A stretch of DNA of 64,000 nt from the NCBI GenBank assembly GCA_945957605.1, contig CAMFLR010000015.1, positions 62,001-126,000 on the forward strand, given 5' to 3'. The DNA comes from an uncultured Isosphaeraceae bacterium. Its GTDB lineage: Bacteria > Planctomycetota > Planctomycetia > Isosphaerales > Isosphaeraceae. Position numbers and translations under genes: made by a program. The notes below the pieces were generated by a model, which saw nothing but the letters and a program-made list of their open reading frames with translations, searched no databases and had not been told where the DNA came from. Positions 6,243 to 16,766 of the stretch are shown one piece after another (positions within the stretch are counted from its first letter, which is position 1; every line of letters starts with the position of its first letter).

Positions 6243-6300
6243 ATTCTCCTCAACGCTTTGCACGTGGGCTACGCACTAAGTGTCGGGCTCAACGAAGAAA

Positions 6301-6417
6301 GGGTGGCCGGGACAACTTGCTTGTCCCGGTCGCGAAGCGACATGAGGATATTCCAACCGGTTTCGCTTCTCCCTCTTGTGGCTGCGCCACCAGGACAACA
6401 AGTTGTCCTGGCCACCC
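6301..6417. repeat. Paired REP-like palindromes (copies B and C) forming a nested inverted repeat
   Basis: Copy B (from 6301) has CCGGGACAA (6307-6315) facing TTGTCCCGG (6321-6329). Copy C has CCAGGACAAC (6390-6399) facing GTTGTCCTGG (6402-6411) with no mismatch. In addition, the left edge of B, GGGTGGCCGGGACAAC, matches the reverse complement of the right edge of C at 15 of 16 positions, and GAAGCG...CGCTTC pair in the middle. The 117-base block is therefore a head-to-head pair of related hairpins, like the paired REP units (BIMEs) of enterobacteria. It lies between convergent genes, the oxidoreductase and argC. Confidence 0.75.
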
Positions 6418-6458
6418 AATTCACTTCATCGCATTTTGTCTCGGATGCGTAATATCTA

Positions 6459-7487
6459 TCACAGCCAAAGCCCCGCCGATTCCGCGAAGCCGTGCATGAG
6501 GTTGAAATTCTGCACGGCGACTCCCGACGCGCCCTTGAGCAAATTATCCAGACACGACAGAACCAGAATCTTCCCGCGCACAACACGCACGGTGATGTCG
6601 CAGAAATTCGTGTTCGTCGAATCCTTCGTCGACGGCGGATTGTTAACGATCCGAACGAAAGGGCTGTCCTTGTAAAACGCACGAAAGAGTTCCATCAAGT
6701 CGTGCTCAACAGCATGTCCCTTGGGATTCGCATAAATCGTCGCGTGAATGCCGCGATCCATCGGCATCAAGTGCGGCGTGAAAATCACCTCAACTGGCTC
6801 ATCACGGTCGCTGCCGAGTCCAACCGTGCTGAGAACCTGATCGATCTCCGGCGTATGGCGATGTCGACCAACGCTATAAGCCATCACATTTTCATTCGCT
6901 TCCGGGAAATGAAAAGTCGGCTTGGGCGCGCGACCACCACCCGAAACGCCGCTCTTAGCGTCGATGATAATCCCGCTTCGCTCGATCAGGTTGTGCGCGA
7001 CCAGCGGCGCGAGCGCCAAAATACTCGCCGACGTATAGCACCCTGGATTCGCGATCAAACCTGCCGAAGCAATCGAAGATCGAAAGAGCTCAGGCAGGCC
7101 ATAGACTGCCTCGTTCAAACCCACGGCATCAGTGTGCGCATGGCCGTACCAATCGGCATAAACATTCGCATCTTTGAGGCGATAATCGGCCGAGAGGTCG
7201 ATCACCTTCACGCCACGTTCGCGAAGCGCAGGAGTCACGGCGAAGCTCGCAGTGTGGGGCAATCCCAGAAACGCGACGCTCGCCTTGCTGGCAAGCTTGT
7301 CGGCGTCGAACGGCTCGCACGTGAGGTTGATGCGCGAGGCGAGGCTCGGGTGCAAGGCGTCGACACGCGTCCCTTCATCGGAGCGTGAAGTGGCCATAGT
7401 CACCCTGGCGTCCGGGTGCCCCAGCAAAATGCGGAAAAGCTCCCGCGCCGCATATCCTGAAGCCCCAACAATCGCCACGTCAATCAT
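6459..7487 (-). CDS. argC: N-acetyl-gamma-glutamyl-phosphate reductase
   Basis: A 342-residue enzyme for the third step of arginine biosynthesis: NADPH-dependent reduction of N-acetylglutamyl phosphate to the semialdehyde, in the cytosol. The N-terminal nucleotide-binding motif is VAIVGASGYAARELFRIL. The active-site Cys is in IANPGCYTSASILAL, and the dimerisation and substrate region SGVSGGGRAPKPTFHF follows. The C-terminal ending (NLLKGASGVAVQNFNLMHG) is the family hallmark. Length is normal for the type-1 family. The ATG at 7487 overlaps the stop of the upstream membrane-protein gene (TGATG), so translation is probably coupled. GTG at 7490 is an alternative start. No other arg gene is visible in the window. 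Confidence 0.96.
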   Translation of the reverse strand: MIDVAIVGASGYAARELFRILLGHPDARVTMATSRSDEGTRVDALHPSLASRINLTCEPFDADKLASKASVAFLGLPHTASFAVTPALRERGVKVIDLSADYRLKDANVYADWYGHAHTDAVGLNEAVYGLPELFRSSIASAGLIANPGCYTSASILALAPLVAHNLIERSGIIIDAKSGVSGGGRAPKPTFHFPEANENVMAYSVGRHRHTPEIDQVLSTVGLGSDRDEPVEVIFTPHLMPMDRGIHATIYANPKGHAVEHDLMELFRAFYKDSPFVRIVNNPPSTKDSTNTNFCDITVRVVRGKILVLSCLDNLLKGASGVAVQNFNLMHGFAESAGLWL

Positions 7488-10709: not shown

Positions 10710-11444
10710 ATGATTTCCCAACACCGCCGATCATCACTCGTTCAATTCTCAATCCTCGCCCTCATATTCATACTCGCTGCCGGCGCGGGGCCCGACAGCA
10801 AACCAGCGTACGCGCCCAGTTCGCATTACGAAACGAGAGAGATCGAAGGCTGGTCGGTGACAATTCATAAGGACCTCCTAGCCGACAGCCCGCTTGCGAC
10901 CGCGACGCTCGACCTGCTCCGGCTCCAGCTCGTTCAAATCGAGCGAATGGTGCCGGCGCAGGCCGTCGCGAAACTACGAAAAATCCGCATCTGGGTCGAA
11001 AAGAACGAGCCGCACCACCCCTGCATGGCCTATCACCCCGATGCCGGCTGGCTCAAAAGCCACGACATGAACCCCGAAAAAGCCGGCTGCGTCGAGCTTG
11101 CAAATGCCCGCAACTTCCTCGACTGGACGAAGCAACAACCCTGGATGGTTCTTCACGAACTCGCACATGGATATCATCATCAATTCCTTCCGGATGGCTA
11201 TTCAAACGCAACGTTGGCCAAGCTCTTCAACCGCGCAACAGACAGCGACAAGTACAATTCCGTGCTGCACATCAACGGCCGCACCGAACGCGCCTACGCG
11301 CTGAACAACCCGATGGAATTCTTCGCCGAAGCAAGCGAAGCCTTTTTCGGCACCAACGACTTCTACCCCTTCGTCCGCGCCGAGCTGCAGAAGCACGACC
11401 CCGAAACCTTCGCCATCCTCAAGACCGTCTGGGAGTCGAACTAA
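10710..11444 (+). CDS. Secreted HExxH putative zinc metallopeptidase-like protein
   Basis: A 244-residue protein with an N-terminal signal peptide or anchor (hydrophobic run FSILALIFILAAGAG, residues 12-26) and a putative metal site HELAHGYHH at about residue 148. A possible third ligand Glu lies in NPMEFFAEASEAFFG about 50 residues later. That arrangement (HExxH plus a distal Glu in an xxEFFAExxxxFFG context) resembles gluzincin-like or anthrax-lethal-factor-like metallopeptidases seen as orphan secreted proteins in planctomycetes. I do not recognise a named family with certainty. ATG 10710 is chosen because it begins directly before the signal sequence. No obvious operon partner. Confidence 0.75.
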   Translation: MISQHRRSSLVQFSILALIFILAAGAGPDSKPAYAPSSHYETREIEGWSVTIHKDLLADSPLATATLDLLRLQLVQIERMVPAQAVAKLRKIRIWVEKNEPHHPCMAYHPDAGWLKSHDMNPEKAGCVELANARNFLDWTKQQPWMVLHELAHGYHHQFLPDGYSNATLAKLFNRATDSDKYNSVLHINGRTERAYALNNPMEFFAEASEAFFGTNDFYPFVRAELQKHDPETFAILKTVWESN

Positions 11445-11535: not shown

Positions 11536-11547
11536 TGGGTGAGCGCG

Positions 11548-12132
11548 ATGGATACAGAGCCAACATTTACAACGTTCGCGGGTGTCAGACGGGTTGTTTC
11601 CGGTGATTTGCGGACGATGCTGGCCGAAACGAAGCGGGAGATCGACGCCAACTCAGGCGAGCCGATTTTGATCTTTGACGACCAAACTGGGCGGCAGGTG
11701 GATTTCGACTTCCGCGGCACGACCGACGAAGTGCTGGCACGCGTCGAAACCACTTCGGCGCCTCGCACCGGTCCCGGCCGGCCGAAGCTGGGCGTGATCT
11801 CCCGCGAAGTTTCCCTTCTGCCGCGTCACTGGGAGTGGCTCGAGCAGCAACCGACCGGGATCTCTGCAGCGCTTCGGCGGCTCGTCGACGACGAACGCAA
11901 GCGGCAGCCAAACAAGGAACGCGCCCGACTTGCGCGCGAAGCCGCCAGCAAGTTCATGTGGGCGATCGCTGGCAACTTCGCGGATTTCGAGGAAGCCTCT
12001 CGCGCCCTTTTCGCGGGCGAGAAAGACAAATTCAGCGAGCACATCGCAAACTGGCCAAGTGACGTTCGTGAACACCTCCAGCGCCTATTACCCGAATTCA
12101 CCTGGACGCCGATTCCGGTTGCCGTTGAGTGA
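11548..12132 (+). CDS. DUF2239 family protein
   Basis: A 194-residue cytosolic protein that matches my recollection of the DUF2239 family. It opens FTTFAGVRRVVSGDLRTML, has an acidic and aromatic core (LIFDDQTGRQVDFDFRG), and then the family-typical central block GRPKLGVISREVSLLPRHW and WLEQQPTGISAALRRLVD. The C-terminal half (AASKFMWAIAGNFADFEEASRALFAG) is helical. The biochemical function of the family is not known to me. The central region looks like a short DNA-binding (ribbon-helix-helix-like) segment, which is speculation. ATG 11548 is chosen. GTG 11539 would add three residues and overlaps the GGGTGAG likely to be the ribosome-binding site. The upstream repeat array suggests dedicated, possibly autoregulated, transcription. 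Confidence 0.85.
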   Translation: MDTEPTFTTFAGVRRVVSGDLRTMLAETKREIDANSGEPILIFDDQTGRQVDFDFRGTTDEVLARVETTSAPRTGPGRPKLGVISREVSLLPRHWEWLEQQPTGISAALRRLVDDERKRQPNKERARLAREAASKFMWAIAGNFADFEEASRALFAGEKDKFSEHIANWPSDVREHLQRLLPEFTWTPIPVAVE

Positions 12133-12814: not shown

Positions 12815-14053
12815 TTATCGCGCAGCAGATGTTGCGTTTTTCGATTGCGATGCCGTGTCTTGCAAAAGCAGGATCAGCGACTGTTCCAGCTCGGCCGGCT
12901 TGAACCCGAATGGGCCGCGACCGTTCTTGAACGCGATCTTGCCCTCGCGATCGATCAGATACAAACGGCTCGGCATGCCGCTATAAAATCCGCCCACCGC
13001 ATCATCCATGGTGTCGACGAGCAGCGGAAATCCAAGGTTCATTTGCTTATCGCAGCGCTTCGCAACAGCCACGCGCTCCTCATAAGTGGTCGGTTGCGGC
13101 AGCACCACGCCAACGCGCTCATTGCTATCCATCCGCCAGCCGTCGGTCGGGTGCGCCTCTCGCACATAGACCATCACAAACGTCGCCCTGTCCTTGTAGC
13201 GATGGTACAGCTTCTCAATATTTCCCGCCTGCGCTCGGAATGGTCCGCACGTGAAGTTACCAAACACAAGCACCACCGGCTTCGGGCCGACGAGCTTGGA
13301 AAGCGTGATCTCACGATCCCCTTCAAACGTCTTCAACGTGAAGTCGCGGAACTGTTCCCCAAGCCTCGGCCCGGGTTGCAACGAGCCGAGTTCTTGCTTG
13401 AAGAGCGCCTTGACGAGCACTTCCTTCGACGGCTGGCCGATGATTCCCGCCGTCGGCCTTGACGGCATTTGAGGCGCCGGCTTAAGGATGTCTTGCACCT
13501 CGCTCAGCGACAAAAACCCCTCGCTGCCGCCGCCGAGCTGGTCGAAAAACGCCTGAAATTCTTCGCGCGAAACCTTGCCATTCGCATCGCGATCCATTCG
13601 CAGAAACACTTGCGTTCCCGGCTGCGCACTACTTTGCGGCGTGTTGAAATCGAAGTCAGCAGCCGTCAGTCCGTGATCGCCGTTGCGATCGAGCCGCGCG
13701 AAATCAGCTTCTGATCCCGGAAATTCCGACGCCGCGACCGTGCCGTTGCCGTCGCGATCGTAGGCCTTCTTTGTTGCTTCCCAGTTGTAGCGAATCTGCG
13801 GCACCGCCCTGCGAAACCAACCGTCTCGCGCCCCGAGCTGGCTTCCTTGCAGAATATCGGTGTACATATCAAGCCATTCCGGACGATCGGGCCACGCTTC
13901 GGCCAGAGTCTCGGCATCGCTTTTCGCCGCCGGCTTGGTGCTCTCAACTCGAACCGGCCGCGGCTCCTGTGCAGTCGCCACGTTCGCGGCCGAAATCCCG
14001 AATGTGATCGTAAGCGCGAGACGCGCGCTCGCAAAGCTTTTTCTCAACTTCAT
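12815..14053 (-). CDS. Secreted EF-hand protein with iodothyronine deiodinase-like thioredoxin-fold domain
   Basis: A 412-residue exported protein. The signal peptide is residues 1-29 (LALTITFGISAANVATAQ). Three EF-hand-like calcium loops follow: YDRDGNGTVAASEF (about 98), LDRNGDHGLTAADF (121) and MDRDANGKVSREEF (153). Residues about 230-400 form a thioredoxin-like domain that closely resembles vertebrate deiodinases: PVVLVFGNFTCGPF, then FVMVYVREAHPTDGW, then PLLVDTMDDAVGGFYSGMPSRLYLI and GRGPFGF. In deiodinases the catalytic position is selenocysteine (SCTUPPF). Here it aligns with Gly270, next to Cys269 (codon TGC), or with Cys269 if shifted by one. No TGA/Sec codon is present. I chose ATG 14053 because it starts the signal peptide; the frame extends to 14191 with no support. 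It follows the AhpD-like gene by 46 bases, suggesting a shared transcript. Substrate is unknown; a peroxiredoxin-like or dehalogenase role is possible. Confidence 0.82.
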   Translation of the reverse strand: MKLRKSFASARLALTITFGISAANVATAQEPRPVRVESTKPAAKSDAETLAEAWPDRPEWLDMYTDILQGSQLGARDGWFRRAVPQIRYNWEATKKAYDRDGNGTVAASEFPGSEADFARLDRNGDHGLTAADFDFNTPQSSAQPGTQVFLRMDRDANGKVSREEFQAFFDQLGGGSEGFLSLSEVQDILKPAPQMPSRPTAGIIGQPSKEVLVKALFKQELGSLQPGPRLGEQFRDFTLKTFEGDREITLSKLVGPKPVVLVFGNFTCGPFRAQAGNIEKLYHRYKDRATFVMVYVREAHPTDGWRMDSNERVGVVLPQPTTYEERVAVAKRCDKQMNLGFPLLVDTMDDAVGGFYSGMPSRLYLIDREGKIAFKNGRGPFGFKPAELEQSLILLLQDTASQSKNATSAAR

Positions 14054-14099
14054 ATGAATGCTCTTTCCTAATTGTGTCGTGTTTCGGAGGAGAACGTGT

Positions 14100-16766
14100 T
14101 CACTTCGATTTCGACGTCGATCCGCTCGCGGCGGGTTTCTTGTTGTAATCCTCGAACACGTTGTCGCGTTCGAGCGGCAATGCGAAGCCATCGGAAACGC
14201 GCGTCATGTACAGGCCGCGGCAGAGCCACCAGAACGTCGCCATCGCGTCCTCGGGTCCGAGATCCGCTTCAAGCGTTTTGTAATCCACTGCGCTCAGTTC
14301 CCAAGGTGTCTTCGTCAGCTTGCGAGCAAACGCGTACGCTCGCTGTTCCTTCGGCGGGAAGCTCGACCAATCATCGCTCGCGAGCCTGCGCGTCCGTTCG
14401 GCGACACCGTTTTTGTCGAGCCCCGCGACCTCGAGCAGCATCTCGCAATGTCCCATGCAGTAGTTGCAACGGATGCTCCGCGTTTGGATCCAGAAGAGAC
14501 TCTCTTCGAACACGCGATCCTGCGGGCGTTCAACCCACATCGTCCGCGTCGACACGCTCCAGGGCACTGCGAGTTCCGGCACATAGCCGTAACACACGAG
14601 GTTCCAGATGATCCGCGTCGGCCGTGCTGTGAATGCGGGCGGAAGATTCTTCTTCACCTCGTCCCACGTCGGAATCGACAGACGAGGCGTCCGCGCACGT
14701 TGCGTATCGAGCCGGGATTGAAGCGTTTCATACGTCAGCGTCGACCATTCGGGATCGCGGTCGACAACCGTCTCGCCTCCATTGAGCAACTTCGGCAATG
14801 CATTCTGTGGGGGCAAAATCGCAGCCTGCTGGAACGCCGAGGACGCAAATTTCACATCCACCGGCGCGAGCGGTCCGCACTCTTCAAGCGGGACCTTCAG
14901 GCCGTGAATAATCCGATCCTGAAAATTGCCGTAGGCCGCAAGCAGCACGATCGATGCCACCTTCTTGTCGCCGTATTTCGCTCGCACTCGCGCAAATAGC
15001 TCGTCATTGATCGTCGAGGCCGAAACCGTCAACTGGCGAGCCAGTTCAAGCGGATCGCGATCCTGTTCCGGCCACTGCGCGTGATCGCCCGTGAGGGTGC
15101 GAATTTCCGAACCGGCGCCAGCACGATCGAGATCGGCAAGCGCCGTCGCGGCTGAATAGGCCGAACGATTTGCTTGCGCAATCACATAACGCATCTTGGC
15201 GCGAAGTACGGGATCAAGCGGGCTCTTCACGCGATGAGCATAGTCGAGTTCGAGCATCGCGGCCGCGGTGCGCGGCATGTAGGTCGCAACAGCCTTCGCC
15301 CAGTTCGGCAATGGCTGCCCTGCTCCGTGCTCTACGCTCGGCAGCTTCTTCCAGCATTCGTCGTCGCTCATGAGTTTGACCACCGTCGCGCCGCTGGCAG
15401 AGGCACTCGTCGTCGCCGGCGGCTTGGTGTTGTAGTAGTCGTAAAAAACATTTTCGCTCTCGAGCTTGAGCTGGAAGCCGTTCGAGATGCGCGTCATGTA
15501 ATGATACCGGCACGCGTTCAGCATCACGATGACGGCGCGTTCGCGGCCGAAATCGTTTTTAAGCACTTTGAGATCATCCGGCCCAATTTCGCCCGGCGAC
15601 CGCGTCAGCTTCCTAGCAAACGCAAACGCGTGCTGCTCGGCAGGCGGGAAGCTCGACCAATCATCGCCAGCAAGCAACTTGCTGCGCTCGGCGATTTCCC
15701 CCTTATTCAGCCCAGCGACTTCCCAGTTCATCTCGCAGTGGCCCATGCAATACGGGCACATGATGGCGCGAGTTGTCACCCAGAACAGGCTAGAGCCAAA
15801 GATGCGATCGTACTTGCCGGTCGCTTCAGCCCCGGCCGTCCGCATGAAGTATTCGTACGGCACCGCGAGTTCCGGCGCGTATCCAAAAACAATGCGATAC
15901 CAAACGATATCGCTGGGCTTGCTGAACATTCCGACGGGGAGCTTGCTGGCGAATTCATCCCAAGCAGGAATCCGCAAACGCGTTGGTTTCTTGCGCTGAG
16001 ATTCGAGACGCGACTGCAGCATGTCGTAAGTGATTCGCGCCCACTCGGGATCGTCGGCCACCAAATCCTTGCCCGTGGGCGACGGAAGTGGCGTCTTCTG
16101 AAGCGGCGGTGGCGGGGTTGTCTTCACTACGAAAGACGCCGGCGCGAACGCCACTTCGAGCGGCGGTAGCGGACCTTCCGGCTCAACCTGCGCACCAAGG
16201 CAAATCAACACGCGATCTTGAAAGTTGGAATAAGCGAGCAAAAGAACCATCGACGCCGCGCGGTTTGGGCCGAAGTCCCTCACGAGCGTAGCGAACTCTT
16301 CGTCGGTCACACTGTCCGAATCAACCGACATCTTACGGGCAAACTCAAGCGCCGCTCGCTCTGATGCCGGCCAGCCGGGGTAGCCGTCCTGTGCCAAAGC
16401 GTCTAGCTTCGAGGCTTCAAGCCCCGCTCTCTTTGCATCGGCCGCGGCATAGGCCTCTGCATAAGCGGAATGATTCGCATGGGCCGAAACCCAGCGCATT
16501 GCCGCGCGAAGTTTGGGATCAACCGGGCTCTTCGTTCGCTGGGCATAATCAAGCTGCAAGAACGCAGCCGTACTCTTGGGCAAATCATTCGCCAGCATCC
16601 GCGCCCAGCTTGGCAACAGTTGCCCCGCTCCCTTTTCGGGACTGGGCAGGCGATTCCACGCCTCTTCGTTGCTCAGCATCGGTGCAAGTGCGTCGGCATT
16701 CGCAGGGCTAGATCCGAGGCATGTCACGATCGGAATCACGGCGATCAGCCTCATCGTTATGCGCAT
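14100..16766 (-). CDS. Exported 888-residue protein with duplicated AhpD/CMD-like domains
   Basis: An exported protein (signal peptide residues 1-25, ending SSPANA) made of two homologous halves of about 430 residues. Each half has an N-terminal AhpD-like helical domain without cysteines (YAQRTKSPVDPKLRAAMRWV; YAHRVKSPLDPVLRAKMRYV). This is followed by a domain with the redox motif CPYCMGHCEM (half 1) or CNYCMGHCEM (half 2), then DDWSSFPP and FARKLTR/KT. It resembles the carboxymuconolactone decarboxylase/AhpD fold, in which CxxC plus His supports peroxidase activity. Here His comes three residues after the second Cys rather than four as in AhpD. The likely location is periplasmic. It is encoded just upstream of the deiodinase-like gene. 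The two may form a thiol redox pair, which is inference from adjacency. Confidence 0.8.
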   Translation of the reverse strand: MRITMRLIAVIPIVTCLGSSPANADALAPMLSNEEAWNRLPSPEKGAGQLLPSWARMLANDLPKSTAAFLQLDYAQRTKSPVDPKLRAAMRWVSAHANHSAYAEAYAAADAKRAGLEASKLDALAQDGYPGWPASERAALEFARKMSVDSDSVTDEEFATLVRDFGPNRAASMVLLLAYSNFQDRVLICLGAQVEPEGPLPPLEVAFAPASFVVKTTPPPPLQKTPLPSPTGKDLVADDPEWARITYDMLQSRLESQRKKPTRLRIPAWDEFASKLPVGMFSKPSDIVWYRIVFGYAPELAVPYEYFMRTAGAEATGKYDRIFGSSLFWVTTRAIMCPYCMGHCEMNWEVAGLNKGEIAERSKLLAGDDWSSFPPAEQHAFAFARKLTRSPGEIGPDDLKVLKNDFGRERAVIVMLNACRYHYMTRISNGFQLKLESENVFYDYYNTKPPATTSASASGATVVKLMSDDECWKKLPSVEHGAGQPLPNWAKAVATYMPRTAAAMLELDYAHRVKSPLDPVLRAKMRYVIAQANRSAYSAATALADLDRAGAGSEIRTLTGDHAQWPEQDRDPLELARQLTVSASTINDELFARVRAKYGDKKVASIVLLAAYGNFQDRIIHGLKVPLEECGPLAPVDVKFASSAFQQAAILPPQNALPKLLNGGETVVDRDPEWSTLTYETLQSRLDTQRARTPRLSIPTWDEVKKNLPPAFTARPTRIIWNLVCYGYVPELAVPWSVSTRTMWVERPQDRVFEESLFWIQTRSIRCNYCMGHCEMLLEVAGLDKNGVAERTRRLASDDWSSFPPKEQRAYAFARKLTKTPWELSAVDYKTLEADLGPEDAMATFWWLCRGLYMTRVSDGFALPLERDNVFEDYNKKPAASGSTSKSK

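Follow-up and report, generated by a model that had tools for sequence, protein, structure and literature searches.

The gene pair and its deiodinase-like member

We analyzed a 64,000-nucleotide stretch of DNA from an uncultured Isosphaeraceae bacterium (the window; contig CAMFLR010000015.1, positions 62,001 to 126,000), in which two neighboring genes on the minus strand encode a deiodinase-like protein and a duplicated AhpD-like protein. The deiodinase-like gene (12815..14053) encodes 412 amino acids, and the partner gene upstream of it (14100..16766) encodes 888, with an operon-like gap of 46 bp between them (14054..14099). These reading frames, coordinates, and spacing agree with an earlier annotation made from the sequence (here called the original prediction). 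The N termini of both proteins resemble Sec signal peptides, judged by hydrophobicity, and on this basis both are predicted to be exported. The signal peptide originally claimed for the 412-residue protein is therefore kept as a putative one, covering residues 1 to 29 (13967..14053).

The C-terminal part of the 412-residue protein had been likened to vertebrate iodothyronine deiodinases, and this match is far above chance. Pfam T4_deiodinase (PF00837) matches residues 255 to 392 with an E value of 2.5e-27 (96.2 bits; gathering cutoff, 27), and the NCBIfam model NF038285, "deiodinase family protein," matches residues 54 to 399 at 6.5e-148 (492.8 bits; cutoff, 250). Among solved proteins, phmmer ranked mouse DIO3 (2.4e-22) and DIO2 (4.5e-16) at the top, with generic thioredoxin-like proteins trailing at 8e-5 or weaker. 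The Pfam AhpC-TSA match is weaker (4.3e-9), and several EF-hand models also match. NF038285, a hypothetical equivalog, covers the same full-length EF-hand region and deiodinase domain, and no difference separates it from the window's gene; its name is silent on function and on an AhpD-like partner. The deiodinase gene itself is thus an already named kind, and the protein is not the discovery that the original prediction took it to be. A 2005 study described bacterial deiodinase-like proteins in selenocysteine (Sec) and Cys forms and suggested that they act in redox reactions (Zhang 2005, PMC1088965); fusion of such proteins to EF-hands was reported in 2021 (PMC9402790). In the available portions of these two papers the proteins, with their Cys and Sec forms and EF-hand fusion, are of the same kind as the window's, and those portions mention no AhpD-like partner, partner fusion, or double-Sec fusion.

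The deiodinase-like domain has a predicted thioredoxin fold and occupies residues ~230 to 398 (12860..13366), as delimited by PF00837 and an AlphaFold2 model (predicted local distance difference test score [pLDDT], 76.5; predicted template modeling score, 0.77). Searched with this model, Foldseek returned DIO3 (2.5e-10) and DIO2 (4.0e-10), the next match being at 1e-7. VIA-align likewise placed DIO2 (Z 18.5 over 171 residues, 2.9 Å) and DIO3 (Z 17.7) above AhpE (Z 15.4) and ResA and other TlpA-like proteins (about 15). Because deiodinases rank first in both sequence and predicted fold, we rejected a generic TlpA/AhpC identity as the best fit. This ranking, together with the AHxxDGW insert described below, upholds the original structural expectation of a deiodinase rather than a peroxiredoxin or TlpA protein.

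The catalytic motif FGNFTCGPF (residues 264 to 272, 13238..13264) aligns with the SCTU of the deiodinases, and Cys269 (13247..13249) occupies the selenocysteine position. The omega-loop region, EAHPTDGW...QP (residues 299 to 321, 13091..13159), contains the deiodinase-specific AHxxDGW insert. The sole cysteine besides Cys269 is Cys334 (13052..13054), a candidate resolving residue. To compare active sites, we used Dio3 numbering from PMC7506546, which describes the Dio3 loop and the roles of Glu200, His202, and Tyr197, and transferred it by phmmer alignment to 127 nonidentical domains (93 Cys and 34 Sec forms). The equivalents of Thr169, Tyr197, Glu200, Ala201, His202, and Arg260 are invariant in all 127, while those of Trp207 and Arg225 are kept in 119 and 126, respectively. 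The window protein thus shares with vertebrate DIO1-3 (4tr3 and 9h48) the thioredoxin fold, the AHxxDGW loop, and the equivalents of Thr169, Tyr197, Glu200, His202, Trp207, Arg225, and Arg260.

Unlike DIO1-3, the window protein has Cys in place of Sec, EF-hands, predicted export, and an AhpD-like partner, and several deiodinase residues are replaced. His219, conserved in mouse Dio1-3, corresponds to Pro321 and is Pro in 124 of the 127 homologues; the Phe258 equivalent is Pro in every one. The proximal Cys168 equivalent is absent, with mostly Phe or Tyr instead, as is the distal cysteine (DIO3 Cys239), where the window protein has Gly341/Phe342. Reduction of DIO1 by glutathione requires the proximal Cys124 (PMC9141512). 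With the proximal cysteine missing from the bacterial proteins, another resolving thiol would be expected: Cys334, the partner, or both. About 123 of the 127 homologues have a second cysteine, either at 334 or at 331, one turn before it. At the position of Asn266 (13256..13258), three residues before the nucleophile, every one of the 34 Sec forms has Ser and 90 of the 93 Cys forms have Asn. We regard covariation with Sec and Cys as doubtful here, since the two forms are near-separate groups on the tree (two changes) and the pattern may simply be inherited.

Three EF-hands had been proposed ahead of this domain, and three canonical loops are present: DRDGNGTVAASE (residues 99 to 110, 13724..13759), which Pfam EF-hand matches also support, DRNGDHGLTAAD (residues 122 to 133, 13655..13690), and DRDANGKVSREE (residues 154 to 165, 13559..13594; PF13405, 1e-10). 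A fourth loop, GGGSEGFLSLSE, is degenerate in the window protein and canonical in relatives such as that at locus L067. Among relatives, the 260 residues ahead of the catalytic motif hold 0 to 4 canonical loops. Beyond these loops of varying number, the "calcium-responsive" part of the original prediction found no support; calcium control of the pair is a guess.

The sestrin-like partner

The 888-residue protein is a tandem of two units of ~430 amino acids, unit A (residues 26 to 455, 15402..16691) and unit B (residues 463 to 888, 14103..15380), which are 47% identical. Its Pfam carboxymuconolactone decarboxylase (CMD) match scores 31.4 bits against a cutoff of 23. Each unit consists of two AhpD-fold repeats, based on the alignment of the AlphaFold2 model of unit B (pLDDT, 91.2) with human Sestrin2 (Z 25.3 over 297 residues, model residues 3 to 401), giving four repeats in all, two of them with a CxxC. 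Single AhpD-like units (Z ~17), Bmp8 (16.7), and Mycobacterium tuberculosis AhpD (11.0) aligned less well. The two CxxCxxHC centers named in the original prediction were found as CPYCMGHC in unit A (residues 337 to 344, 15735..15758) and CNYCMGHC in unit B (residues 767 to 774, 14445..14468). Both sit in the second, C-terminal repeat of their unit, and the matching position of the N-terminal repeat is Ser. The residue 12 positions before the first Cys is Glu in unit B and Ser in unit A; in M. tuberculosis AhpD this position is Glu118.

A single-sequence phmmer search with the partner gave no useful match in the Protein Data Bank, but profiles did. The profile of the catalytic repeat alone matched the debrominase Bmp8 first (1.4e-8; 6ohi and 6ohj) and AhpD at 3.6e-4, a ranking of closest solved relatives that is biased because few AhpD-like proteins have been solved. 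Bmp8 carries the motif CMYCKSH, with the same CxxCxxH spacing as both units of the partner, which differ in this from the CxxCxxxH of AhpD. Bmp8 is, however, a single AhpD unit, and debromination by the partner is a candidate activity suggested by this sequence match. Sestrin2 (5dj4) shares the two AhpD-fold repeats per chain, but it has one catalytic Cys, in the first repeat (PMC4674687), whereas the partner has a CxxC pair in the second. AhpD-related selenoproteins (NF041238; CMD-like CxxU proteins, PMC13188914) share the AhpD fold and the CxxU seen in the partner's relatives. Unlike NF041238-type families, the partner of the window's clade falls below the cutoffs of all NCBIfam models matched; none reached its cutoff on the 888-residue protein or its scanned relatives, one distant paralogue excepted.

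Pairing, fusion, and selenocysteine forms

Conserved pairing of the two genes, which the original prediction had proposed as a check, was found across the class, often as fusion. We sampled 80 named loci, including Isosphaeraceae, Pirellula, Gemmataceae, and Schlesneria. The deiodinase and CMD domains share one open reading frame at 20 of them, are adjacent at 19, and lie within the flank at 6; no CMD was seen at the other 35, some of which are truncated. Fusions occur in the isolate Zavarzinella formosa DSM 19928 (locus L146, 6809-9478) and in single-contig genomes (G373 and G426), and both domain orders are found, with CMD first in L112 and L115. Parsimony on a rapidly built tree requires 17 changes between fused and unfused states, indicating repeated fusion or fission; seven of these changes, involving Cys fusions, are forced by well-supported branches. 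Pairing was seen in the EF-hand clade (104 sequences) but not outside it, where most sequences have only ~1.5 kb of flank visible.

We then scored co-occurrence in 397 genomes of the class, using the full-length deiodinase protein and a threshold of E 1e-60 for the partner. The deiodinase was present in 125 genomes, the partner in 92, and both in 81 (odds ratio, 44; Fisher P = 1.5e-39, a value that overstates the association because related genomes are not independent). Among the deiodinase genes listed, 56 have the partner within 1.5 kb. Chance adjacency, for which gene density gives a rough expectation of ~0.1% per gene, was rejected on this count.

Many homologues across the phylum have a single in-frame TGA within the match, at the column of catalytic Cys269. 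Independently of this TGA, relatives of the partner read CFYUMGH, in which an in-frame TGA replaces the second Cys of the CxxC. Of 21 checked genomes with TGA forms, 17 have a true tRNA-Sec (>60 bits). In the window's genome neither tRNA-Sec (45.8 bits) nor SelB scores above the cutoff, consistent with the Cys form there.

In three loci one frame has TGA at the catalytic position of the deiodinase domain and again at that of the AhpD-like domain: L130 (5292-7952), L144 (5209-7989), and L163 (1-2394). L163 and L130 each form one frame with two TGA codons, and we read them as single double-Sec proteins because the full translation matches both domains (the models of both families in L163; T4_deiodinase and CMD in L130). 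L144 has the same layout. These three fusions therefore appear to be single proteins with putative Sec at both centers.

Other CMD genes also occur beside the deiodinase genes. In L126, L129, L137, L143, L147, L140, and L169, the deiodinase-CMD genes adjoin more distant CMD paralogues, whose motif is CQYCLGHQ or CTYCLGHQ, making redox clusters of three or four genes at these planctomycete loci. The deiodinase gene of L156 has beside it a small CMD gene of the peroxidase-related type (6269-6838; CRFCTNSH), which has relatives in five other loci and is possibly an alternative partner.

A proposed thiol/selenol relay

On balance, the pair probably works as a thiol/selenol relay in the periplasm, with the deiodinase-like Cys recharged by the CxxC of the AhpD-like protein. 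This reading rests on the domain identities, the predicted fold, the conserved cysteines, Cys/TGA exchange at both centers, conserved pairing, and repeated fusion; the direction of electron flow, the role of Cys334, the location, and the substrate we infer. The relay would be a two-module thiol reductase working outside the cytoplasm. Cys269 (Sec in relatives), as the lone nucleophile within the deiodinase active-site network, would attack an electrophilic atom of a small molecule, and its oxidized form would be resolved by Cys334 or directly by the partner. The partner's CxxC (CxxU in relatives) would supply the electrons and would itself be recharged by some periplasmic reductant. Overall this would resemble an AhpC/AhpD-type relay, with the deiodinase domain standing in for AhpC. 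As in M. tuberculosis AhpC/AhpD, a thioredoxin-fold nucleophile is joined to an AhpD-fold CxxC partner; unlike that system, this one has a deiodinase for AhpC, a sestrin-like double repeat for AhpD, CxxCxxH spacing, predicted export, and frequent fusion. The thiol redox or dehalogenation pair of the original prediction, placed in the periplasm, fits this evidence and is in part supported by it.

Several observations weigh against this relay. At E 1e-60, 44 of the 125 deiodinase genomes lack the partner, and 43 listed deiodinase genes have it elsewhere or on a different contig; the deiodinase protein thus does not need a partner beside it to exist. A second EF-hand deiodinase-like gene in the window's genome (61% identical; G000:C2:576252-577283, loci L002, L008, and L040) lacks any AhpD-like gene within ~7 kb. 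Cys334 is shifted or missing in some family members. A fold test for a selenocysteine insertion sequence after the TGA was not significant, with mean z values of -0.14 (deiodinase) and -0.69 (CMD) that are near those of the Cys forms; our provisional assignment of TGA to Sec is based on its position and on tRNA-Sec.

For the substrate, we lean slightly toward reductive dehalogenation over hydroperoxide reduction, judging from sequence and predicted structure. A reductive dehalogenase, which we consider possible, would use Cys269 or Sec to take a halogen (I or Br) from an aromatic compound, with the AhpD-like module regenerating it or acting as a second dehalogenating center like Bmp8. Bmp8 uses deiodinase-like chemistry, and the closest solved relative of each module is a reductive dehalogenase (DIO2/DIO3 and Bmp8), subject to the bias noted above. 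The conserved AHxxDGW loop and equivalents of Glu200, His202, and Tyr197 also favor this activity, but the prolines at His219 and Phe258 and the missing Cys168 and Cys239 equivalents do not. Nor were dehalogenation genes seen to recur nearby; outside the deiodinase/CMD cluster, no conserved neighbor was clearly relevant. We rate an envelope hydroperoxidase as only slightly less likely. In that case the deiodinase domain would act like a one-Cys peroxiredoxin, as a peroxidase with the partner as its reductant, or alkyl hydroperoxides would be reduced by the sestrin-like module itself. The AhpC-TSA match, the rank of AhpE next in fold, and the AhpC/AhpD precedent point this way, as do the partner's Sestrin2 fold, Sestrin2 being an alkylhydroperoxide reductase (PMC4674687), and known gene clusters of peroxiredoxin-like and AhpD-like selenoproteins (PMC13188914). 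However, the peroxiredoxin motif PxxxT/SxxC is not present in the 412-residue protein, which reads VLVFGNFTC, with Thr268 immediately before Cys269 and a residue other than Pro seven positions upstream, and a peroxidase would not need the invariant deiodinase-specific residues.

An envelope disulfide reductase or isomerase acting on proteins, as TlpA and ResA do, is improbable. In its favor are the fold similarity to ResA and other TlpA-like proteins and the predicted export of the CxxC partner, but ResA trails the deiodinases by about 3 Z units and in E value, and the second active-site Cys is missing (TCGPF). Least probable is that a shared stress regulon explains the adjacency, with no electron exchange between the proteins. 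Many genomes with the genes apart, or with just one of the two, would suit that explanation; co-regulation by itself would hardly account for the repeated joining of the two domains in one chain, in either order.

Returning to the relay, the repeatedly fused partner with its own Cys/Sec-swapping center provides a concrete functional link for bacterial deiodinase-like proteins, whose function has stayed unassigned since their description in 2005, in that it suggests what may recharge the deiodinase-like center. The single-chain fusions and the single- and double-Sec forms offer constructs that make this function directly testable. More speculatively, and rather unlikely as a whole, planctomycetes may export a reductive dehalogenase that is modular, is often a single chain, works without metal or flavin, and combines a deiodinase-type Cys/Sec with a Bmp8/sestrin-type CxxC/CxxU, as a bacterial counterpart of thyroid-hormone deiodination and perhaps kin to its ancestor. 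If the substrate is an organohalide, the pair would add an exported, metal-free route of dehalogenation and would bear on the origin of the vertebrate deiodinases. In the open-license papers searched, we found no description of the partner's conservation, of its recurrent fusion to the deiodinase in a single chain, or of the double-Sec fusions, and the papers that mention both deiodinase and carboxymuconolactone decarboxylase were selenoproteome surveys only.

Two further genes lie near the pair on the opposite strand. The gene adjoining it (11539-12132, plus strand) encodes a DUF2239 protein (8.3e-72), a family with no assigned function. Beyond it, a plus-strand gene (10710-11444) encodes a predicted exported, metallopeptidase-like protein with an HExxH motif (HELAHGYHH) and subthreshold matches to two metallopeptidase models, PF07737 and PF06167.

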